Positions 7,200-60,577 of a DNA stretch of 64,000 nucleotides are shown here, piece after piece. Source of the stretch: Shinella sp. CPCC 101442 (GTDB lineage Bacteria; Pseudomonadota; Alphaproteobacteria; Rhizobiales; Rhizobiaceae). The translations under genes were made by a program, and so were the position numbers. The notes under the pieces are model-generated. The model saw only the letters and a program-made list of their open reading frames with translations, had not been told where the DNA came from and made no database searches. The stretch covers positions 1 through 64,000 of the forward strand of contig NZ_JALIQS010000016.1 in NCBI RefSeq assembly GCF_024704725.1, given 5' to 3'. Position 1 is the stretch's first letter. Every line of letters begins with the position of its first letter.

Positions 7200-7469
7200 A
7201 TGGCGGGTGAAGCCCAACATCTTTTGCAAGAGCGCATGACGATCCTCGGCGAACTCGACGCGGAGAGCTTCGTACCATGGATCCGCCGTCACGCGGCCAA
7301 GCTCGGCGTTTCGCAGGTCATAACCCACAGCGGCCCGGACCGCATCGAGGTCGATCTTTCCGGCGCGCCGGAACTGATCGACATGATGGAAGTCGGCTGC
7401 CTGCTCGGCCCGATTAACGTATGGGTTGAAACGATCGATCGCAGGCCTGTCGGCAATGCCGGTGGATAG
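7200..7469 (+). CDS. Small acylphosphatase-like protein lacking the catalytic loop
   Basis: An 89-residue protein. ATG 7200 has GGAG 7 nt upstream; an in-frame ATG at 7179 is possible but has a poorer site. Its pattern follows the acylphosphatase fold: a helix FVPWIRRHAAKLGVSQ, a beta strand DRIEVDLSGAPELIDMM and the closing GPINVWVETI. The phosphate-binding loop G-x-VQGVGFR is replaced by GELDAESFVPW, and the catalytic Asn position appears to be His in ITHSG. It is therefore probably not an acylphosphatase enzyme. It stands alone between the LacI gene and the Rieske operon. The family assignment is by pattern only. Confidence 0.6.
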   Translation: MAGEAQHLLQERMTILGELDAESFVPWIRRHAAKLGVSQVITHSGPDRIEVDLSGAPELIDMMEVGCLLGPINVWVETIDRRPVGNAGG

Positions 7470-7592: not shown

Positions 7593-8234
7593 ATGCCGTC
7601 CGGTACGGCGAGCTCCTGGGTGCCGGTCGCCCTTTCTTCGGATCTGCCATCGGGAACCGTAATGCCGGCGCGAATTCCCGCCGGTCCCCTTGCCCTCTGG
7701 CGCAGCCAGTCCGGCCATGTCGCCGCATCGGCGGACCGATGTCCGCATCGCGGGATGAGCCTTTCGCACGGCTTCGTGCGCGGCGAGACGCTTTCCTGCA
7801 TCTATCACGGCTGGAGTTACGGACAGGCCGGGAACTGTCTTCGCATTCCCGCCCATCCGGGACTGACGCCGCCTGAAGCGATCCGCACCGTCACCCATCC
7901 GGTGGCGGAGGCCGATGGCGTGATCTGGATCGCCGTCGGCGAACCTGCCGGCACGCCGCCGGCCCTTGCCGGCCTCGTGCCGCTGCGCTCGCTCGCCGCC
8001 TTCGCGGGCATCGCCGCAATCGAGGCGGCGGCCGGAACCAGGGCGAATGCCGCGGGACTGCTGGAAGCGGAAGATATCCGGCTCCTCCTGTCGTCTGCCA
8101 GGGAGGGCGAAACCCTCATCCACGTGCTGGTCGAAGCCGATGCGAGCCCTGCCGCCCGCATCGCCGCCGCACGCGCCGCCGAGGGCCTTCGCCGCAAGGC
8201 CGAGGATTTCCAGAAGAAGGGAGCCGCCCGATGA
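7593..8234 (+). CDS. Stand-alone Rieske [2Fe-2S] protein with C-terminal extension
   Basis: A 213-residue protein from ATG 7593 (a TTG at 7578 is an alternative). Residues about 8-115 form an oxygenase-type Rieske domain with both cluster motifs complete: Cys50-Pro-His52 in CPHRGMSLSHG, and Cys69-x-x-His72 in CIYHGWSYG. A roughly 95-residue extension with no recognised domain follows, rich in Ala and ending in a charged helix. No membrane anchor, ferredoxin-reductase domain or catalytic iron domain is present. The next gene overlaps by 4 bases and encodes an oxygenase catalytic domain without a cluster, so this protein probably delivers electrons to it as a separate redox subunit. Confidence 0.85.
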   Translation: MPSGTASSWVPVALSSDLPSGTVMPARIPAGPLALWRSQSGHVAASADRCPHRGMSLSHGFVRGETLSCIYHGWSYGQAGNCLRIPAHPGLTPPEAIRTVTHPVAEADGVIWIAVGEPAGTPPALAGLVPLRSLAAFAGIAAIEAAAGTRANAAGLLEAEDIRLLLSSAREGETLIHVLVEADASPAARIAAARAAEGLRRKAEDFQKKGAAR

Positions 8235-9076
8235 CTGTAGGTCCCATGCTCGATGAATGGTACCCGGTCGGCATCTTCGGCCAACTCGACGAGGCCGGCC
8301 GCAAGACCATGCTGATGGATGAGCCGATCGTGGTCGCGCGCGATGGAAACGGCGACGCCAAGGTGACCGACAGCAGCGGCCGCATCCTGCCGGTGCGCGT
8401 GCGTTACGGCCATGTCTGGACCTCGCTTGGTGAACCCAAGAAGGAGCTCTTCGCCATTCCCGAGGCCGACCAGCCGGGTCGCCGTTTCGTCGATGTCGGC
8501 GTGGTGCGCGTGCGCTGCTCGCCGTTGCGGGCCGTCGAGAATTTCCTCGACATTGCCCATTTTCCCTTCGTACACACCGACATCCTCGGCGCCGAGCCGC
8601 ATACGGAAGTACAGGCCTACAAGGTCGAGATCCGCGAGGATGTCGACGAGGTCTGGGCAACGCAGGTGCAGTTCTACCAGCCGCAGGCGGCGAAATCGGC
8701 CAGCGGCGGCATCACGACGCAATATATGTATCGGGTCGCGGGACCGACCTCCACCGTGCTCTACAAGACCTGCCCGCCACGGCCGAGCGAATGGGACGTC
8801 ATCACGCTTTTCGTGCAACCGCTCGCCGAAGACCTCTGCGACGTCTGGCCATGGATGGCACTGTTCGACGACGACACACCGATGACCGACCTTATCCACT
8901 TCCAGCAGACGATCTTCCTGCAGGACCGCTCGATCCTGGAAAACCAGGTGCCGCGGCTCCTGCCGCTCGATCCCGGCATGGAAATGCCGACGCGCGCGGA
9001 CCTGACCTCGGTGGCTTACCGGCGCTGGCTGAAGCGCCACAACTATACCTATGGCGCGCAACTGGTGGCGCAATGA
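8231..9076 (+). CDS. Rieske-less non-haem iron oxygenase catalytic subunit (NdmC/VanA-like)
   Basis: A 281-residue protein matching the catalytic part of vanillate-demethylase-type Rieske oxygenases. The mononuclear iron motif is NFLDIAHFPFVH, with bridging Asp107 and ligands His110 and His115. Asp232 in FLQDRSILENQ is the probable third ligand. The first 67 residues keep the outer beta framework of a Rieske domain (DEWYPVGIFGQL ... YGHVWTSLGEP), but the cluster-binding part with both Cys-x-His pairs is missing. That part appears in the preceding gene. NdmC of Pseudomonas putida CBB5, a 7-methylxanthine N-demethylase, has the same architecture. Expected chemistry is O2-dependent demethylation or hydroxylation. 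The substrate is unknown and a reductase is not in the window. Confidence 0.82.
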   Translation: MTVGPMLDEWYPVGIFGQLDEAGRKTMLMDEPIVVARDGNGDAKVTDSSGRILPVRVRYGHVWTSLGEPKKELFAIPEADQPGRRFVDVGVVRVRCSPLRAVENFLDIAHFPFVHTDILGAEPHTEVQAYKVEIREDVDEVWATQVQFYQPQAAKSASGGITTQYMYRVAGPTSTVLYKTCPPRPSEWDVITLFVQPLAEDLCDVWPWMALFDDDTPMTDLIHFQQTIFLQDRSILENQVPRLLPLDPGMEMPTRADLTSVAYRRWLKRHNYTYGAQLVAQ

Positions 9077-9735
9077 TGAAGCTATACGACTACATTCTCT
9101 CGCCGAGTTGCTACAAGGTCCGCCTGATGGCGGCGCTTACAGGCGTCAAGCTCGACCTGCGCGCCGTCGACTTCCATCCCGGCCTCGAGCATCGCGGCCC
9201 GGAACTCCTGGCACTCAACCCCGCGGGCTCGATCCCCATCCTCGAAGACGGCGACCTGCTGCTGACCGAATCCTCGGCCATGCTGGTCTATCTCGCCGCC
9301 AAGGCGGCACCGGGCTGGCTCGCCGGCAGCGATGCGGAAGAGGCTGCCCGCGTACAGCAATGGCTATCGTTCTCCGGCCGGCTCACGGCCAGTCTCGGCG
9401 GTGCGCGGCTGCATGAAATGCTGCTCCGGCCCGGCGATATCGGCGTTCTGCAATCGCAGGGCATCGCCGCCCTTCGCGAACTGGAACTCGGCCTCGTCGA
9501 ACAGGCGGAACGCGGCAAGCGCTTCCTCGCCGCCGACCGGCCGACCGTCGCCGACATCGCGTGTTTCCCCTATGTGGCGCTCGCACCCGATGGCGGCGTG
9601 TCGCTCGACCCCTATCCGGCAATCCGCCTCTGGTCGCGCGCGCTTCGCTCCCTCAAGGGTTTCATTGAAATGCCCGGCATCCATCGGCTGCACGAGCTGA
9701 AACCGGAACCGCAGCTCGAAGCGGGCGGGGCCTGA
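9073..9735 (+). CDS. Glutathione S-transferase-like protein (NdmE-like context)
   Basis: A 220-residue GST-fold protein. The N-terminal thioredoxin-like domain has SPSCYKVRLMAALTG and the cis-Pro/Glu-Ser region GSIPILEDGDLLLTESSAM. The C-terminal helical domain includes RPTVADIACFPYVALAPDGG with the capping Asp. The start overlaps the oxygenase stop in ATGA form, so the genes are coupled. In the NdmCDE demethylase a GST homologue, NdmE, is a structural partner of the Rieske-less oxygenase. The same neighbour here suggests a structural or glutathione-linked role in the oxygenase complex. An ordinary detoxifying transferase is the alternative. Confidence 0.8.
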   Translation: MMKLYDYILSPSCYKVRLMAALTGVKLDLRAVDFHPGLEHRGPELLALNPAGSIPILEDGDLLLTESSAMLVYLAAKAAPGWLAGSDAEEAARVQQWLSFSGRLTASLGGARLHEMLLRPGDIGVLQSQGIAALRELELGLVEQAERGKRFLAADRPTVADIACFPYVALAPDGGVSLDPYPAIRLWSRALRSLKGFIEMPGIHRLHELKPEPQLEAGGA

Positions 9736-9736
9736 C

Positions 9737-11107
9737 ATGACCGGTTATCTCCTGAAGAACTGCGCTGCGGTGATCGTCAACGACGGCAACGGCCCGACAG
9801 TACGGCGCAATGTCGATCTTTTGACTGAGGGATCGGCAATCAAGGCGATCGGCGAAAACCTTGCCGCCGCTCCCGGCATACAGGTTCAGGACGCTACCGG
9901 CTGGTTCGTCTATCCCGGCCTCGTCAACACACATCACCATTTCTTCCAGTGCTTCGTGCGCAACCGCGCCGATCTCGACTGGACAAAACTGTCCGTCATC
10001 GAGTGGCTGGACCGCATCTATCCGGTGTTTTCGCAGCTCAACGAGGAATGCTTCTACCATTCCTCGGTCACGGCCATGGCCGAGTTGATCAAACACGGCT
10101 GCACGACCGCCTTCGATCACCAGTACAATTTTCCGCGCCATGCCGGAAAGCGGCTGATCGACCGGCAGTTCGAGGCCGCCGACCTGCTCGGCATGCGCTT
10201 CCACGCCGGCCGCGGCGGCAATACGTTGCCGAAATCGGAAGGGTCGACCATTCCCGACGCGATGCTGGAGACGACGGACGAATTCATCGCAGACTGCGCC
10301 CGCCTGATCGACACCTATCACGACGCCAAGCCGTTCAGCATGCGCCAGGTCGTCGTTGCGCCCTGCCAGCCGGTGAATTGCTACCGTGAAACCTTCGTCG
10401 AATCGGTTTCGCTCGCGCGGGATCGTGGTGTATTCCTGCACACCCATGTGGGGGAGGGTGAAAGCCCGGTGATTGAAGCGCGTCACGGCAAACGCACCGT
10501 CGATTACCTGGAAGAGCTTGGTTTTGCCGGCCCGGATGCGTTCTACGCCCATTGCTGGGAGTTGACGCATGGCGAGCTGAAAACCATGGCGGCGAGCGGC
10601 ACCGGCGTCTCCCATTGCCCGGAACCGGTCTACCTCGTCGGCGCCGAAGTGACAGACATTCCCGCCATGGCAGCCTTCGGCCTGCGCGTCGGCCTCGGCT
10701 GCGATGGCGCTGCCTCCAACGACAATTCCAACCTCATGCACTGCCTGCATTCGGCCTATATGCTGCAATGCCTCGTCGCCTCGACGCGCAAACATGCCGT
10801 GCCCAACCCGGCCGATTTTCTCGGCTACGGCACGACGGGCGGCGCAAGCCTGCTCGGCCGGCCGGACATCGGCCGGCTCGCGCCCGGCATGGCCGCCGAT
10901 CTCTTCGCCATCGACACGCGCCGCATGGACTATGTCGGCACCCGCCATGATCCCGTCAGCCTGATCCCGCGTGTCGGCATCGGCATGGCGACGGACATGA
11001 CGATGATCAATGGCCGCATCGTCTGGCAGGACGGCGCGTTTCCCGGCCTCGACGAGGCAAAACTCGCCGCCGACGCGGAAGCCGCACTCGCCACCGTAGA
11101 ATTCTAA
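9737..11107 (+). CDS. Amidohydrolase, 8-oxoguanine deaminase/atrazine chlorohydrolase type
   Basis: A 456-residue zinc amidohydrolase starting 1 base after the GST gene stop. Metal and catalytic residues are visible: His66-x-His68 in NTHHHFFQ, His235/His237 with Glu240 in HTHVGE, His272 in HCWEL and Asp323 in GLGCDGAASND. The arrangement NTHHH ... HTHxxE ... DGAASND is that of 8-oxoguanine deaminases and s-triazine hydrolases. It probably removes an amino or similar group from a purine-like or triazine-like ring in the cytoplasm. Position between the oxygenase genes and a nucleoside-type transporter supports an N-heterocycle substrate. The exact substrate is not predictable. Confidence 0.85.
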   Translation: MTGYLLKNCAAVIVNDGNGPTVRRNVDLLTEGSAIKAIGENLAAAPGIQVQDATGWFVYPGLVNTHHHFFQCFVRNRADLDWTKLSVIEWLDRIYPVFSQLNEECFYHSSVTAMAELIKHGCTTAFDHQYNFPRHAGKRLIDRQFEAADLLGMRFHAGRGGNTLPKSEGSTIPDAMLETTDEFIADCARLIDTYHDAKPFSMRQVVVAPCQPVNCYRETFVESVSLARDRGVFLHTHVGEGESPVIEARHGKRTVDYLEELGFAGPDAFYAHCWELTHGELKTMAASGTGVSHCPEPVYLVGAEVTDIPAMAAFGLRVGLGCDGAASNDNSNLMHCLHSAYMLQCLVASTRKHAVPNPADFLGYGTTGGASLLGRPDIGRLAPGMAADLFAIDTRRMDYVGTRHDPVSLIPRVGIGMATDMTMINGRIVWQDGAFPGLDEAKLAADAEAALATVEF

Positions 11108-11130: not shown

Positions 11131-12228
11131 ATGACCAACCTGACCCGCAGAACCCTGATGCAGGCCGCAGCCGCCACCGGGCTTGCCGGTGCGTTCGGCA
11201 GCCGCCTTGCCTTTGCCGCCGACGAGCCGCTCGGCATCACGCTCGTCGTGCCCTCGCCGATCGGCGATGTCGGCTGGGGCCATGCGCTTTCCGCCGGTCT
11301 CGAGCCGGTGAAGGCCGCCTATGGCGACAAGGTCAAGGTCACGGTGCTGGAAAACATCATGGAAGGCCCCGACGCCGACCGCATCATGACCAAGACTGTC
11401 GCCGACGGAAACAAGCTCCTGATCGCCGGCTCCTTCGGCTACCAGAACGGCGCCCTGCAGATCGCCCGCCGCGACCCCGGCGTCACCGTCCTGCATGCCT
11501 CCGGCTTCCAGGTCGCGCCGAACTTCTCGCCGTTTGCGGCAAAGTATTTCCAGGGCACCTACTTGCTCGGCATGGCCGCCGCCGCCCTTTCCAAGACCGG
11601 CAAGCTCGGCTCCGTCTCGGCCTTCGCGATCCCGGAACTGATCACCTCCATCAACGCCTTCGCGCTCGGCGCCCAGGCCGTGAACCCCGACATCGAGGTC
11701 TCAGTCGTCTGGGTCAACTCCTGGTTCGATCCGGCCAAGGAGCAGGAAGCGGCCAAGGCGCTGATCGCGCAGAAATGCGACGTGATCTTCTCGAACGCCC
11801 AGGATACGCCCTCCGTCGTGGCCGCCTGCGAGGAGGCCGGCGTCTATTCCTTCAACCTCAATTCCTCGATGAAGAAATACGCCGAAAAGACCTATCTCGG
11901 CTGCGTCGCCACCGACTGGTCGCCCTTCTTCCTCGCCTCGGTCGAAGCCCATCTTGCCGGCACCTTCAAGGGTGCTAACGCCTTCCTCGGCGTCGCCGAC
12001 AAGGTCGTGCAGGTGACGGACTGGAACCCCGCCATCCCGGCCGACATGATGGCGAAGATCAAGGACGTCGAGACGAAGATCGCCGACGGCAGCTTCTCGC
12101 CCTTCACCGGGCCGATCGCCAGGGCGGATGGCAGCGATGGTGTCGCGGCCGGCGCAACGATGACCGATGCCGAGATCGTCGCCATGGACTGGCACGTCAA
12201 GGGCGTCGCCACCCCGCTGCCGAAGTAA
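11131..12228 (+). CDS. BMP-family (nucleoside/purine-type) ABC binding protein
   Basis: A 365-residue periplasmic binding protein of the basic-membrane-protein/PnrA family. It has a Tat signal with Arg6-Arg7 (TRRTLM) and likely cleavage after residue 29 (LAFA). Family features include VVPSPIGDVGWGHALSAGLEP, LIAGSFGYQNGALQIARR and CDVIFSNAQDTPSVVAACEE. Characterised members bind purine nucleosides or related bases and feed two-permease transporters like the one encoded directly downstream. It is preceded by GAGGGAACC as ribosome site, 23 bases after the amidohydrolase gene. Confidence 0.86.
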   Translation: MTNLTRRTLMQAAAATGLAGAFGSRLAFAADEPLGITLVVPSPIGDVGWGHALSAGLEPVKAAYGDKVKVTVLENIMEGPDADRIMTKTVADGNKLLIAGSFGYQNGALQIARRDPGVTVLHASGFQVAPNFSPFAAKYFQGTYLLGMAAAALSKTGKLGSVSAFAIPELITSINAFALGAQAVNPDIEVSVVWVNSWFDPAKEQEAAKALIAQKCDVIFSNAQDTPSVVAACEEAGVYSFNLNSSMKKYAEKTYLGCVATDWSPFFLASVEAHLAGTFKGANAFLGVADKVVQVTDWNPAIPADMMAKIKDVETKIADGSFSPFTGPIARADGSDGVAAGATMTDAEIVAMDWHVKGVATPLPK

Positions 12229-12232
12229 GCCC

Positions 12233-13750
12233 ATGACCCCGCCCCTTCTGTCGCTGCGCGGCATCTCGAAGAGCTACGGACAGATCAAGGCCAACCAGGG
12301 CATCGACCTTGATGTGGCCGACCGGTCGATCCATGCGATCCTCGGGGAGAACGGGGCGGGCAAATCGACGCTGATGAAGCTCATCTACGGCGTCGAACAG
12401 CCCGATGACGGAACGGTTTCCTGGCAGGGCGAGCCTCTCGCCCTCGCCTCCCCCGCCGAGGCGCGGCGACAGGGCATCGGCATGGTCTTCCAGCATTTTT
12501 CGCTGTTCGAGACCCTGACGGTGGTGGAGAACATCCGGCTCGTCGTGCCCGGCCACAAGGCGGAGCTGACGGAGCGCATCCGCGCGCTGGGACGTGATTT
12601 CGGCCTTGAGGTCGATCCGCTCGCCCATGTGCACGCGCTCTCCGTCGGCGAGCGGCAACGGGTAGAGATCATCCGCTGCCTGATGACCAACCCGAAGCTG
12701 CTGATCCTCGACGAACCGACCTCGGTTTTGCCGCCGCAGCTCGTGGAAAAGCTCTTCGACACGCTGCGGCGCCTGCGCGACGGTGGCGTTTCCATCCTCT
12801 TCATCTCGCACAAGCTGGAGGAGATCCGGGCGATCTGCGACCGCGCGACGATCCTGCGCGCCGGCCGCGTGACGGGCAATGTCGATCCGCGCGAGCACGA
12901 CGCCCATGATCTCGCCCGCATGATGATCGGCCGCGACATGCCCGAGCCGATGCCGGCCGAGCCCAGGGCCGGCGGCGACAAGCAGCTCGAAATCATCGGC
13001 CTCGACTACACGCCGGACGACCCCTTCGCCGTGCCGCTGGCCGGAATCGATCTGGCGGTGCGCGCCGGCGAAATCCTGGGCATCGCCGGCGTCTCCGGCA
13101 ACGGCCAGAGCGAACTCGCCGCGCTGATCTCGGGCGAAACGCGACTTTCGCGACAGGAGCGGGGCCGCATCTTCATGATGGGTGAGGACGTCGGCCAGCT
13201 CCGCCCCGCGGCCCGCCGCGAGCGCGGCTTCGCCTTCGTGCCGGAGGACCGGCTCGGCCGCGGCGCCGTGCCGGAAATGTCGCTGGTGCTGAACGGGCTG
13301 CTGACCGCCCATCCGTTGAAACTCCTGAAGCGCGGTCTCGTCGACAAGGCGGCGGCGAGCGCCTTCGCCGAGACCTGTATCCGCGACTACGACGTGCGCA
13401 CCCCCGGTCCCGAGGCCGAGGCCGGGTCGCTTTCCGGCGGCAATCTGCAAAAATTCATCGTCGGCCGCGAGATCATGCTGGCGCCGAAACTGCTCTTCAT
13501 CGCCCAGCCGACCTGGGGCGTCGATATCGGCGCAGCCTCGGCGATCCGCCGCCGGCTCGTCGCCTTGCGCAATGAAGGCATGGCGATCCTCGTCATCTCG
13601 GAGGAGCTGGAAGAGCTGTTCGAACTCGCCGACACGATCCAGGTTCTCTATCACGGCCGTCTCAGCCCGCCGCTCGTGACGCGCGATACCAGGCCGGAAG
13701 AGATCGGCCGCCATATGATGGGCGCAAAGCCGGAAAAGGCCGACGCATGA
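12233..13750 (+). CDS. Double-domain ABC ATPase, nucleoside/sugar type
   Basis: A 505-residue ATPase with two ABC domains. Domain 1 has Walker A GENGAGKST, signature LSVGERQR and Walker B LLILDEPTS. Domain 2 has the altered Walker A GVSGNGQSE, signature LSGGNLQK and LLFIAQPTWGVD in place of a normal Walker B. This asymmetry is normal for RbsA/YufO-type ATPases. The start at ATG 12233 is chosen because the protein then begins at the first beta strand (LLSLRGISKSYGQ). It is four bases from the binding-protein stop and overlaps the permease start by 4 bases. It energises import of the binding-protein ligand. Confidence 0.88.
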   Translation: MTPPLLSLRGISKSYGQIKANQGIDLDVADRSIHAILGENGAGKSTLMKLIYGVEQPDDGTVSWQGEPLALASPAEARRQGIGMVFQHFSLFETLTVVENIRLVVPGHKAELTERIRALGRDFGLEVDPLAHVHALSVGERQRVEIIRCLMTNPKLLILDEPTSVLPPQLVEKLFDTLRRLRDGGVSILFISHKLEEIRAICDRATILRAGRVTGNVDPREHDAHDLARMMIGRDMPEPMPAEPRAGGDKQLEIIGLDYTPDDPFAVPLAGIDLAVRAGEILGIAGVSGNGQSELAALISGETRLSRQERGRIFMMGEDVGQLRPAARRERGFAFVPEDRLGRGAVPEMSLVLNGLLTAHPLKLLKRGLVDKAAASAFAETCIRDYDVRTPGPEAEAGSLSGGNLQKFIVGREIMLAPKLLFIAQPTWGVDIGAASAIRRRLVALRNEGMAILVISEELEELFELADTIQVLYHGRLSPPLVTRDTRPEEIGRHMMGAKPEKADA

Positions 13751-14841
13751 GCATGACGAGCCTGCTGCCCACCCTCGTGCGCCGGGAGCGCGCTTCGCTG
13801 AAGGCGACGCTGCTGGCTCCGCCGCTGGCGCTCGCCGCCGCCATCCTGCTCAATCTAGGGCTCTATGTGCTGATGGGCCGTGATCCCGCCGCCGTGGTGC
13901 ACGCTCTGCTGCTGGAGCCCTTTCTCTCCTGGTCGTCGTTTTCCGAAGTGCTGCTGAAGACCGGCCCCTTGCTCTTCATCGCGCAGGGTCTCGCCATCGG
14001 CTTCCGCGCGAAGGTCTTCAACATCGGCGCGGAAGGGCAGTTCATCCTCGGTGCGATCTTCGCGTCCGCCATTCCGATCTGGTTTCCGCAGGCGGCCGGC
14101 GGCTGGATCTGGCCGTCCATGCTGCTGCTCGGTGCAATCGGCGGCGCGCTCTGGGCCGGCATCACGGCTTTTTGGCGCGTGCGTCTCAACGCCAATGAAA
14201 TTCTCGTCTCGCTGATGCTGAGCCTGGTGGCGGCACAGCTCCTGTACTACCTGCTGCTCGGCCCATGGAAGGACCCGAACGGCTTCAATTTTCCGCAATC
14301 GGTGATGTTCCAGTACGACGCCATGGTGCCGACGCTGTTTGCCGGCACCCGCGTCAACGTCTCGCTTTTGATCGCACTCGCACTCTCGCTCGCCGCGTGG
14401 ATCTTCATGCAGAAAAGCTTTATGGGCTACAAGCTGCAGGTCGGCGGCCTCGCACCGCGCGCGGCCGGCTATGCCGGCTTCAGCGAGGGCCGGGCGATCT
14501 GGCTGTCGCTGCTGATCGGCGGCTTTGCCGCAGGCCTGGCCGGTGCGGCGGAAGTCGCAGGCCCACTCGGCCAGCTCCAGCGCTCGATTTCCACCGGTTA
14601 CGGCTATTCCGCCATCATCGTGGCCTATCTCGGAGGCCTGCACCCCATCGGCATCGTCGTCTCGTCGCTGGTCATGGCCGCGATCTCGATTGGCGGCGAC
14701 AATGCCATGGTCTCGGCCAACCTGCCGATCGCCGCGGTGCGCGTCTTTCAGGGCAGCCTGCTGCTCGCCTATCTCGTCGCCGTCGCCTTCGTGCGTTATC
14801 GCCTCGAATGGCCGCAGATAACCGCGCGGAGCCCGTCATGA
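13747..14841 (+). CDS. ABC transporter permease 1 (BMP/nucleoside type)
   Basis: A 364-residue integral membrane protein with about nine or ten hydrophobic helices. The motifs GFRAKVFNIGAEGQFILGAIFAS and RLNANEILVSLMLS are typical of the larger permease (YufP type) of nucleoside/BMP transporters, which are BPD_transp_2 family. It overlaps the ATPase gene by 4 bases and the second permease gene by 4 bases, consistent with a single polycistronic transporter operon. Confidence 0.87.
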   Translation: MSMTSLLPTLVRRERASLKATLLAPPLALAAAILLNLGLYVLMGRDPAAVVHALLLEPFLSWSSFSEVLLKTGPLLFIAQGLAIGFRAKVFNIGAEGQFILGAIFASAIPIWFPQAAGGWIWPSMLLLGAIGGALWAGITAFWRVRLNANEILVSLMLSLVAAQLLYYLLLGPWKDPNGFNFPQSVMFQYDAMVPTLFAGTRVNVSLLIALALSLAAWIFMQKSFMGYKLQVGGLAPRAAGYAGFSEGRAIWLSLLIGGFAAGLAGAAEVAGPLGQLQRSISTGYGYSAIIVAYLGGLHPIGIVVSSLVMAAISIGGDNAMVSANLPIAAVRVFQGSLLLAYLVAVAFVRYRLEWPQITARSPS

Positions 14842-15749
14842 ACGCCGTCGAATTCATCTTCGCCGGCATGCTGGCGGCCGCGACGCCCTTCCTGCTTGCG
14901 GCGCTCGGCGAGCTGGTCGTCGAACGTGCCGGCGTGCTCAATCTCGGCGTCGAAGGGCTGATGGCCTTCGGGGCGGTCATCGCCTTCATCATCGTCTATC
15001 ACGGTGGCGGGCATTTTCTCGGCTTCGTGGCCGCCGGCGTCTGCGGCGCGCTGCTCTCGCTGGTCTTCGCCCTCATCGCGCTCGGCTTCCGCGCCAACCA
15101 GGTGGCGACGGGCCTTGCCATCGGCATTCTCGGCCAGGGCCTTTCCGCCCTCTTCGGCAAGAGCTACGAGAGCATGACCGTCAAGGGCCTGCCGAAGATC
15201 GGCATTCCCGGCCTTTCCGACCTGCCTGTCGTCGGTGGCCTCTTCGTACAGGACATCGTGGTCTGGCTGTCGCTGCTGGCCACACTGGCGATATGGGCCA
15301 CCTTCGCTTTCACCAAGACCGGGCTCGTCATCCGCGCCGTCGGCGAGAATCCGAAGGCGGCGCACGCCATCGGCTACCCCGTCATCGGCGTCAGGGTCGC
15401 CGCCGTCGCCTTTGGCGGCATGATGGCCGGCCTTGCCGGCGCCTACGCCTCGGTGGTCTATACGCCGCTATGGGCCGACGGCATGATCGCCGGCCGCGGC
15501 TGGATCGCCATTGCCCTCGTCGTCTTCGGAACCTGGCTCACCGGCCGCGTCTTCCTGGGCGCCTGCCTCTTCGGCGCGGTCTCCCTGATGAGCCTTGCCG
15601 CCCAGACGACCGGCCTCGACCTGCCCTCGCAGCTCCTCTCGAGCCTGCCCTATCTCGTCACCATCATCGTGCTCGGTATCATCTCCGCCGACCGCCGCCT
15701 GCTCAAGCTCAACGGCGTCGCCTCGCTTGGAGAGCCCTTCGAGCGCTGA
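14838..15749 (+). CDS. ABC transporter permease 2 (BMP/nucleoside type)
   Basis: A 303-residue membrane protein starting at ATG 14838 within an ATGA overlap. The conserved LVVERAGVLNLGVEGLMAFGAV and GFRANQVATGLAIGILGQGLSALFG regions, plus GENPKAAHAIGYPV near residue 175, identify it as the smaller YufQ-type permease that pairs with the preceding gene. It ends the operon that begins with the Rieske protein. It is followed by about 200 bases before the cold-shock gene. Confidence 0.87.
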   Translation: MNAVEFIFAGMLAAATPFLLAALGELVVERAGVLNLGVEGLMAFGAVIAFIIVYHGGGHFLGFVAAGVCGALLSLVFALIALGFRANQVATGLAIGILGQGLSALFGKSYESMTVKGLPKIGIPGLSDLPVVGGLFVQDIVVWLSLLATLAIWATFAFTKTGLVIRAVGENPKAAHAIGYPVIGVRVAAVAFGGMMAGLAGAYASVVYTPLWADGMIAGRGWIAIALVVFGTWLTGRVFLGACLFGAVSLMSLAAQTTGLDLPSQLLSSLPYLVTIIVLGIISADRRLLKLNGVASLGEPFER

Positions 15750-48406: not shown

Positions 48407-49018
48407 TCACCCCTCCATCAAAGGCTTTGCCTGCCGGATGGCGGCGACGATGTTCGGATAGGCGGCACATCGACAGAGATTGCCGCTCATATATTCGCGG
48501 ATATCGGCCTCCGTCTCAGCATGCCCCTCCTTGACGCAGGCGACCGCCGACAGGATCTGCCCCGGCGTACAGAAACCGCACTGGAAGGCATCCTGATCGA
48601 TGAAGGACGCCTGCATCGGATGTAATGCACCATCCTCGCCGGCAAGACCCTCGATGGTCGTGATGTCGGCGCCGTCAGACGCCACGGCGAACATCAGGCA
48701 GGACAGGATGCGGCGTCGATCGACATGGACGGTGCAGGCGCCGCACTGGCCCTGGTCGCACCCTTTCTTCGCACCGGTCAGGCCGGCCTGGTCGCGAAGC
48801 GCATCGAGGAGGCTCGTGCGGGCGTCGACAGAAAGCCGCCGGCGCTGGCCGTTGACCGTCATTCCGACGGCTGTCAGCGCCCGGGCATCTTCCGAGGCAT
48901 CAAGCGCCGGTATCTCGGCCCGCGCCGCACGCACGGCAAAAGGCGCAATGGCGACGCCAGCCGATCCTCTCAGGAAATTCCGGCGATGGGGATTGGGCAA
49001 GTTCGGATCACCTGGCAT
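48407..49018 (-). CDS. paoA: [2Fe-2S] subunit of a PaoA-type aldehyde oxidoreductase with Tat signal
   Basis: A 203-residue iron-sulphur subunit. A twin-arginine signal (HRRNFLRGSAG, Arg12-Arg13) carries the assembled complex to the periplasm. The first cluster site is CDQGQCGACTVHVD with a later Cys, and the second is CGFCTPGQ with CRCAAY. It is the first gene of the paoABC operon. Homology to E. coli PaoA rests on the Tat signal, the gene order and the partner subunits. Confidence 0.92.
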   Translation of the reverse strand: MPGDPNLPNPHRRNFLRGSAGVAIAPFAVRAARAEIPALDASEDARALTAVGMTVNGQRRRLSVDARTSLLDALRDQAGLTGAKKGCDQGQCGACTVHVDRRRILSCLMFAVASDGADITTIEGLAGEDGALHPMQASFIDQDAFQCGFCTPGQILSAVACVKEGHAETEADIREYMSGNLCRCAAYPNIVAAIRQAKPLMEG

Positions 49019-56854: not shown

Positions 56855-57310
56855 ATGCCGGTTCTCAAGGTCAACGGATCGCCGCACGAGATCGATCTTC
56901 CCGACGACACCCCGCTCCTGTGGGCGCTGCGTGATACGCTCGGGCTGCTCGGAACGCGCTATGGCTGCGGCGCCGCTCTGTGCGGCTGTTGCACCGTGCA
57001 TGCGGATGGCAAAGCGCTGCGATCCTGCGTCGCGACGCTGGCGGATGTCGCCGGCGCCGAAATTCTCACCATCGAGGGACTTGGCACCGCTGCGACGCCC
57101 CATCCGGTGCAGGCGGCCTGGCTAGAGATCGACGTCGCCCAATGCGGCTACTGTCAGTCCGGGCAGATGATGCAGGCCGCCGCCCTCCTGCGTGAAATAC
57201 CGAAGCCGAGCGATGCGGATATCGATGCCGCCATGTCCGGCAACCTCTGCCGCTGCGGCACCTACAGCCGCGTCCGCGCCGCTATCCACCGCGCTGCGGA
57301 GTTCATCTGA
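56855..57310 (+). CDS. iorA: [2Fe-2S] subunit of an isoquinoline 1-oxidoreductase-like enzyme, copy 1
   Basis: A 151-residue small subunit of the IorA type with GGAGG before ATG 56855. Cluster 1 is [17 protein letters not shown] with a following Cys. Cluster 2 is CGYCQSGQ with CRCGTY. It has no signal of its own and would be exported with the Tat-tagged large subunit encoded next, whose start overlaps by 1 base. The family oxidises N-heterocycles or aldehydes and passes electrons to cytochrome c. Confidence 0.92.
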
Positions 57311-60112: not shown

Positions 60113-60577
60113 ATGGCCAGCTTGAACATCAACGGCGAAATCCGTGATCTGGACGCGGAGCCGGGAACGCCTCTCCTGTGGGTGCTGCGCGAGCAGGCGG
60201 GCCTCACCGGCACGAAATATGGCTGCGGCATCGCCCAGTGCGGCGCCTGCACCGTCCATGTCGACGGCGTTGCCGTGCGCTCCTGCTCGATCCCGGTCGA
60301 AGCCATTGCGCCCGACCAGAGGATCGTGACCATCGAAGGCCTCGGCAAGGACGGGCTGCACCCCGTCCAGCAGGCCTGGCTGGAGCTCGACGTTCCGCAA
60401 TGCGGCTATTGCCAGTCCGGCATGATCATGGCCGCGGCTGCCCTTCTTGCCGAACACCCCGATCCCGGGCCCGACCTCATCGCAGGCGAGATCACCAACA
60501 TCTGTCGCTGCGGCACCTATTCCCGCGTTGCCGCCGCCATCGCGCAGGCGGCGGCAACGCGGGCCGGCAAGAGCTGA
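60113..60577 (+). CDS. iorA: [2Fe-2S] subunit of an isoquinoline 1-oxidoreductase-like enzyme, copy 2
   Basis: A 154-residue IorA-type subunit from ATG 60113 with AAGGAG upstream. Cluster 1 is YGCGIAQCGACTVHVDG with a following Cys. Cluster 2 is CGYCQSGM with CRCGTY. It is clearly related to the copy-1 subunit but well diverged, so the duplication is old or the sets came separately. It begins 71 bases after the dihaem cytochrome gene. Confidence 0.92.
   Translation: MASLNINGEIRDLDAEPGTPLLWVLREQAGLTGTKYGCGIAQCGACTVHVDGVAVRSCSIPVEAIAPDQRIVTIEGLGKDGLHPVQQAWLELDVPQCGYCQSGMIMAAAALLAEHPDPGPDLIAGEITNICRCGTYSRVAAAIAQAAATRAGKS

Follow-up and report, generated by a model that had tools for sequence, protein, structure and literature searches.

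We analysed a stretch of 64,000 nucleotides of Shinella sp. CPCC 101442 (positions 1 to 64,000 of contig NZ_JALIQS010000016.1, hereafter the window), in which consecutive genes encode a stand-alone Rieske protein (RSK), an oxygenase subunit lacking the Rieske cluster (OXY) and a protein resembling glutathione S-transferases (GST). RSK overlaps OXY, and OXY overlaps GST, by 4 bases each. RSK and OXY are probably two mutually incomplete copies of one oxygenase that work together. The arrangement recalls NdmCDE, reportedly described by Summers et al. in 2013 as the N7-demethylase complex of Pseudomonas putida CBB5, with which a preliminary description of this DNA had compared it. Below, L, G, C and f numbers are our labels for loci, genomes, contigs and families. 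The features of the three genes are:

7593 to 8234, forward strand: RSK, stand-alone Rieske [2Fe-2S] subunit of 213 amino acids, ATG at 7593 (Pfam Rieske, E 2.6e-21)
7974 to 8228, forward strand: C-terminal extension of RSK, residues 128-212, without iron ligands (hhalign, AF2, Foldseek)
8231 to 9076, forward strand: OXY, cluster-less mononuclear-iron oxygenase subunit of 281 amino acids (Pfam VanA_C, E 8.1e-19)
8237 to 8446, forward strand: OXY residues 3-72, Rieske-fold stump without Cys/His hairpins (hhalign of RSK and OXY profiles)
8549 to 8575, forward strand: Asp107, His110 and His115 of OXY, the two His being iron ligands (invariant in 42 of 42 rows)
8924 to 8926, forward strand: Asp232 of OXY, iron ligand (invariant in 42 of 42 rows)
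9073 to 9735, forward strand: GST-like subunit of 220 amino acids in NdmE-like position (Pfam GST_N, E 8e-13)

The cluster-bearing and the catalytic subunit

Pfam searches and a check of the ligands agreed with what the preliminary description had read at this locus, namely that OXY keeps the full iron motif (Asp107, His110, His115, Asp232) without Cys-x-His pairs, that the preceding gene supplies a complete Rieske domain on its own chain and that a GST-like gene follows with a short overlap. RSK, in which the Pfam scan detected no reductase domain, carries the cluster ligands C50, H52, C69 and H72, invariant in all 63 RSKs and N-termini of NdmD-type proteins (Rieske domain fused to reductase). 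OXY gave no Pfam Rieske match; its only cysteines are residues 96, 181 and 203, with no Cys-x-His pair among them, and its alignment with 42 cluster-less relatives has a mean column identity of 55%. Asp107 we take to be the bridging Asp, from its role in other Rieske oxygenases. Comparison of the RSK and OXY profiles with hhalign (probability 97, E 4.1e-11) laid OXY residues 3-72 on the Rieske domain, so that the flanking strands reported earlier are indeed retained, and the single gap in the alignment spans RSK residues 49-97, which comprise both Cys/His hairpins.

The search of named genomes returned 470 relatives, and the analysis used the best 80 (OXY identity 83-96%); the closest among these, at 96%, are from Shinella. 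In all 80 loci the OXY frame contains D-x2-H-x4-H and lacks the Rieske motif, and RSK, OXY and GST, the gene order whose search had been proposed, lie together. A sequencing error or local deletion in OXY was rejected, as the same cluster-less frame with RSK and GST adjoining recurs in 80 of 80 loci. The earlier concern that OXY might be a normal full-length oxygenase with a sequencing deletion was likewise not borne out: full-length homologues exist (the nearest 37-41% identical, in the same kind of transporter setting), but they form a separate group and no sign of a deletion was seen. That OXY is a decayed or non-oxygenase protein would account for the missing cluster of its family, but we consider this most improbable given iron ligands invariant in 42 rows, the column identity of 55%, a gene set kept in 80 of 80 loci and, according to the available part of PMC4408171, the activity of the equally cluster-less NdmC. 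As a separate observation, the intact OXY of genome G356 is accompanied by a broken second copy (L143:8075-9056) that extends across two overlapping frames.

Of the uncharacterised C-terminal extension ascribed to RSK in the preliminary description, the presence stands; it is, however, not unique, as NdmD-type proteins have the same extension between Rieske and reductase, and it looks like a catalytic-domain remnant. Aligned by hhalign with the catalytic domain of OXY, the extension gave a probability of 60 and a score of 31.3 over 23 columns, compared with 7.5-13.6 for the only control, eight column shuffles. Its secondary structure in the single-chain AF2 model of RSK (pLDDT 94.8, pTM 0.89) is E-H-E-E-E-H (strand, helix, three strands, long helix). 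With this model, the 24 best Foldseek matches were all SxtT/GxtA chains (TMq 0.66-0.73, root-mean-square deviation 4.7-7.0 Å). Since the Rieske part (about 125 of 213 residues) alone would cap TMq at about 0.59, the values reached require at least a rough superposition of the extension on the catalytic domain. Judging by profile and model, it is probably the stump of a helix-grip catalytic domain.

The single-chain AF2 model of OXY (pLDDT 93.5) also had SxtT/GxtA chains as all 24 of its best Foldseek matches (TMq 0.83-0.88). By sequence, RSK matches residues 10-129 and OXY residues 109-333 of the solved chain SxtT/SxtDIOX. Moreover, in 397 genomes the OXY query and the RSK profile share their four next-best intact genes (in G079, G038, G144 and G114); three of these full-length genes (L118-L120) adjoin BMP/ABC genes and the fourth locus is too short to judge. 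These sequence and model comparisons suggest a common origin of RSK and OXY from a single purine-associated SxtT-like oxygenase, each lacking what the other has: RSK would retain the [2Fe-2S] cluster without the catalytic centre, and OXY the iron centre without the cluster. From the gene content, ligands, domain remnants and co-occurrence observed we infer a complex in which electrons of RSK would cross the protein interface to the OXY iron via the bridging Asp107. This path would take the place of the transfer to a neighbouring subunit in trimers of ordinary Rieske oxygenases; the part of a 2025 review at hand describes such electron transfer between subunits (PMC12445004).

Co-occurrence, gene layouts and descent

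Co-occurrence was determined in the 397 genomes, all of the window's order (Rhizobiales), with score cut-offs that were fixed after the gaps had been seen: at least 198 bits for OXY (next intact gene 142), at least 193 bits for RSK (next 137) and at least 78 bits for an acylphosphatase-like gene described below (next 52). Up to 6 candidates per genome were scored for OXY, up to 7 for RSK and up to 14 for acylphosphatase, so extra copies could be missed. Cluster-less OXY (74 copies, excluding the broken one of G356) and extended RSK (62 copies found) occurred in the identical 62 genomes, neither alone; because the RSK profile (A3) was built on sequences taken from OXY loci, the detection of RSK next to OXY is in part a product of that choice, which does not apply to its absence elsewhere, and the shared kinship of genomes of one order makes the Fisher values for OXY/RSK and for acylphosphatase far too strong. 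Open-frame length (below or above 450 amino acids) divides the 62 genomes into 41 with a stand-alone RSK and 21 with RSK fused to a reductase. Two OXYs with one RSK were found in 12 genomes. The catalytic subunit may thus be exchangeable, since a single RSK-GST pair goes with either one OXY or two.

One RSK per two OXYs, and RSK and OXY genes that can lie far apart, would also suit a general ferredoxin supplying several oxygenases, with loose collision between RSK and OXY and with GST as an ordinary glutathione enzyme. We regard this as unlikely, since RSK without OXY was not found in the 397 genomes and RSK, with its 213 amino acids and conserved extension, is twice as long as Rieske ferredoxin models (100-106 positions). 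The GST gene lies on the RSK strand at most 3 kb away in 80 of 80 named loci (as does OXY), 32 of 32 other stand-alone loci and 19 of 20 fused loci (the miss being L142), a count that omits six RSK rows close to the ends of their loci (L131, L139, L183, L189, L193, L237). In four of the 32 other stand-alone loci (L132, L144, L145, L184) OXY is more than 3 kb from RSK and GST still lies beside RSK; hence GST tracks RSK and not OXY. Only 15 of 47 GSTs of the family retain the Ser of the glutathione site, which fits a structural role and speaks against a catalytic one. The GST-like protein could therefore be a scaffold that holds or stabilises RSK, within the complementary pair that we prefer to a general ferredoxin.

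The following layouts were encountered:

RSK, OXY, GST
RSK, OXY, GST with a separate NdmD-type reductase gene adjoining the stand-alone RSK cluster (L115:9194-10573, with L219 in the same place; L117:4497-5483; L137:10325-11302)
OXY, NdmD-like protein, GST
RSK, OXY-reductase fusion, GST (Variovorax L173; G857)
Rieske-extension-ferredoxin protein without flavin domain (L239)
full-length oxygenase in loci where neither RSK nor GST was matched (L118-L120, L243-L249)

Several of these are observations in their own right. A cluster-less oxygenase fused to a flavin/NAD/[2Fe-2S] reductase lies beside a stand-alone Rieske and a GST gene at L173:9968-11782 (Variovorax plasmid CP063167.1), and the same fusion in the same company at G857:C165:11917-13728 (L285); the part of the 2025 review at hand states that a self-sufficient Rieske oxygenase had not yet been identified (PMC12445004). 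At L239:6604-7860 (G680) Rieske, extension and plant-type ferredoxin share one chain with no flavin/NAD domain match. Tandem pairs of cluster-less oxygenases lie beside one NdmD-like protein and one GST in L112, L113, L150 and L167 (Sinorhizobium meliloti). The full-length genes are SxtT-like, lie in BMP/ABC clusters and are possible unsplit relatives of the split system. Stand-alone RSK also occurs outside Alphaproteobacteria, the window's class, in family f86, which is probably Burkholderiales because the Variovorax fusion has its 60% match there.

In a 67-row tree of the catalytic domain (NdmC of CBB5 not among the rows, base unresolved) the full-length genes fall on one side (94/96), the alphaproteobacterial stand-alone rows, with the OXY of the window, form one clade (97/94), and one branch (85/89) sets apart 20 rows of the fused or Rieske-ferredoxin kind; stand-alone rows of f86 fall in two places. 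The least number of layout changes is four, reached with a stand-alone ancestor, and such an ancestor with later fusions is preferred, not proven. The system could instead be a strict NdmCDE orthologue, that is, a purine N7-demethylase whose NdmD was merely divided into a Rieske and a reductase part, the latter being encoded elsewhere. OXY is 47% identical to a Klebsiella and 45% to a P. putida plasmid homologue, each adjoining a 585-amino-acid NdmD-like protein and a GST, which upholds the kinship to the NdmCDE type proposed earlier; none of the sequence collections searched yielded NdmC of strain CBB5 itself. The shared GST and Rieske extension, the purine setting and the separate NdmD-type reductase genes of L115, L117 and L137 point the same way. 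The window OXY, however, lies outside the NdmD-fused branch (85/89), apart from it with the other alphaproteobacterial stand-alone rows, and the minimum of four changes goes with a stand-alone ancestor, so that we find strict orthology rather doubtful and prefer the stand-alone ancestor.

Companions, electron donor and purine setting

The operon continues past GST to about 15749. The three genes named in the preliminary description were correct; the 88-amino-acid gene upstream (7203-7469) and the downstream operon had been overlooked:

7203 to 7469, forward strand: acylphosphatase-like small protein of 88 amino acids (orthologue called 'acylphosphatase' by PGAP; start set by the length of annotated orthologues)
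9737 to 11107, forward strand: AMH, amidohydrolase, 8-oxoguanine-deaminase-like (NCBIfam NF006055, 369 bits, under the cut-off of 532)
11131 to 12228, forward strand: BMP-type (PnrA-like) substrate-binding protein (Pfam Bmp, 7e-41)
12233 to 13750, forward strand: ATPase of an ATP-binding cassette (ABC) transporter (Pfam ABC_tran in two stretches; start set from relatives)
13747 to 14841, forward strand: ABC permease 1 (Pfam BPD_transp_2)
14838 to 15749, forward strand: ABC permease 2 (open frame that recurs in many relatives)

The profile of the 88-amino-acid protein (A5) matches solved acylphosphatases (best E 1e-5), with no Pfam match. In true acylphosphatases the catalytic Arg stands directly after a conserved Phe; this residue is Arg in one of 34 rows and Val in the window protein, which is probably catalytically dead (pseudo-acylphosphatase). 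The gene (at least 78 bits) was found in 40 of 41 stand-alone, 0 of 21 fused and 0 of 335 other genomes of the order, and matches of 52 bits or less are presumably ordinary acylphosphatases. It lies on another contig than RSK in G010, lies 6-8 kb away in G085 and G336, and is absent from G226; two genomes of the same class and another order also carry it (G738, 95 bits; G606, 93 bits). All six stand-alone f86 genomes lack it (G733, G863, G954, G827, G926, G916), the sole acylphosphatase match of G827 being at the level of ordinary acylphosphatases (34 bits). An adapter needed wherever no reductase is at hand would fit the 40 of 41 stand-alone genomes and the linked reductases of G226, where the gene is absent, and of G336 and G085, where it is not upstream; it is contradicted by G010, whose gene is unlinked without such a reductase, and by the six f86 genomes, whose loci have neither the gene nor a reductase match, and was rejected. 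The pseudo-acylphosphatase is a lineage-linked companion, not shown as a general need.

Neither the window operon nor any of the 80 named loci contained a reductase gene, so a reductase from elsewhere must be needed. The 'three-component oxygenase' with the cluster as independent subunit, as first described, consequently holds for the independence, which extends throughout the stand-alone lineage, but not for the number of components, given the reductase needed and the pseudo-acylphosphatase companion. The survey of linked reductases took in loci up to L255, and the genomes of L115, L117 and L137, with their separate NdmD-type reductase genes, have the pseudo-acylphosphatase gene not upstream of RSK or not at all. 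Four proteins of the window's genome match PF00175, and the DmmA-like one on contig C1 is closest to the reductase part of NdmD (34% identity). An NdmD/VanB-type reductase encoded elsewhere would feed RSK, with this DmmA-like protein as best candidate. Three further Fer2 domains lie in the window at 48698-48859, 56867-57028 and 60125-60286, near large frames that resemble, by eye only, molybdenum oxidoreductase subunits.

The best solved match of AMH is an 8-oxoguanine deaminase entry (E 1e-88). In G237, OXY is directly flanked by an 8-oxoguanine deaminase (598 bits against a cut-off of 532) and an amidohydrolase reaching no cut-off, after which come a guanine deaminase (404 against 375) and an adenosine deaminase (290 against 217); the gene that follows RSK-GST in this genome is adenine-deaminase-like (347 bits, below its cut-off of 472). 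An annotated guanine deaminase adjoins an NdmD-type cluster of Mesorhizobium. The operon would encode uptake and first oxidation of a purine-like base, and AMH would deaminate the OXY product. As to the reaction, hydroxylation of a guanine-type purine at C8 followed by deamination is our tentative choice over removal of an N-methyl group, which we hold possible with a little less conviction. An NMT1/xanthine-type riboswitch is described, in the portion of the source at hand, as accompanying purine dioxygenases; positions 1-30000 of the window gave no riboswitch match in Rfam. The literature searched contained nothing linking 8-oxoguanine deaminase with Rieske proteins, or 7-methylguanine and a deaminase with Rhizobium.

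We assign a probability of about 0.72 to the model as a whole, in which a purine-like base would be taken up and first oxidised by complementary RSK and OXY, with GST as scaffold and a reductase encoded elsewhere. Several points weigh against it. The 369 bits of AMH fall below the 8-oxoguanine deaminase cut-off of 532, and with no reductase in the operon or the 80 named loci the donor is a guess. The match of the extension to the catalytic domain is short (23 columns) and moderate (probability 60), the Foldseek deviation of RSK from SxtT/GxtA reaches 4.7-7.0 Å, and the contact and distances between RSK and OXY are conjectured, the structural data being single-chain models. Finally, the finding of RSK where OXY is found owes something to the construction of profile A3, unlike its absence elsewhere, and with at most seven first-look candidates scored per genome a second RSK could be missed.

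Relation to known systems

A natural system whose Rieske cluster and iron centre could be purified, mutated and titrated separately would make electron transfer between subunits testable, and the data suggest an exchangeable catalytic subunit of use in biocatalysis and a purine pathway in rhizobia. The split oxygenase beside purine-uptake genes is carried by many nitrogen-fixing soil bacteria; in Rhizobium johnstonii 3841 its locus is situated on pRL10 (L042). No description of the stand-alone Rieske layout was found in the literature searched, a search outside which most subscription papers lay; nor was any paper found, by title, on a split or stand-alone Rieske oxygenase of this kind, or, by title and abstract start, on acylphosphatase linked with Rieske proteins in this sense.

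Among solved structures, SxtT/SxtDIOX (GxtA) is closest to both halves in sequence and fold, but carries both centres on one chain. With the classical VanA/SxtT alpha subunit OXY shares the VanA_C-type catalytic fold, but not cluster and iron on one chain. The Moco (molybdenum cofactor)-independent xanthine hydroxylase of the HpxD type is, like the system described here, a Rieske oxygenase tied to purine oxidation; the annotated HpxD (L174), in contrast to OXY, has its own cluster motif and an adjoining gene with a ferredoxin motif, and the two are 29% identical over 78% of its length. The ndmCDE homologues of Sinorhizobium and Mesorhizobium, on large rhizobial plasmids, resemble our locus in combining OXY, GST and a BMP/ABC transporter and differ in their fused NdmD and, in some, two tandem OXYs; beyond the closest ones, ndmCDE homologues are placed mainly in these genera, with unknown function, by the available part of PMC4408171.

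NdmCDE of P. putida CBB5 shares with the window a cluster-less catalytic subunit with iron ligands, a Rieske domain in trans and a GST-like partner gene, and NdmD-type relatives have the same extension after the Rieske domain as RSK. In NdmCDE, however, the Rieske domain is fused to the reductase, whereas here it is a separate subunit of 213 amino acids with no linked reductase and with a pseudo-acylphosphatase gene; the NdmD-type relatives tested form a tree branch separate from the OXY of the window. In the available part of PMC4408171, NdmCDE is described as the first system whose Rieske domain has been separated from the oxygenase and joined to the reductase, and also as the first that depends on a GST. 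Its structure is unsolved according to what was available of PMC13237722, and the part of the 2025 review at hand does not mention NdmC (PMC12445004). In our data the stand-alone RSK is the commoner form (41 of 62 genomes), the NdmCDE layout making up a single branch (21 of 62). We lean towards an ancestral Rieske oxygenase that gave rise to two half-dead subunits with obligate electron transfer between gene products, an RSK-GST module (with the pseudo-acylphosphatase in Alphaproteobacteria) that drives interchangeable purine OXYs, and NdmCDE as a later fusion within an older and wider family. What seemed an exception in NdmCDE thus appears to be a widespread and reciprocal split, of which the stand-alone layout may be the older form.

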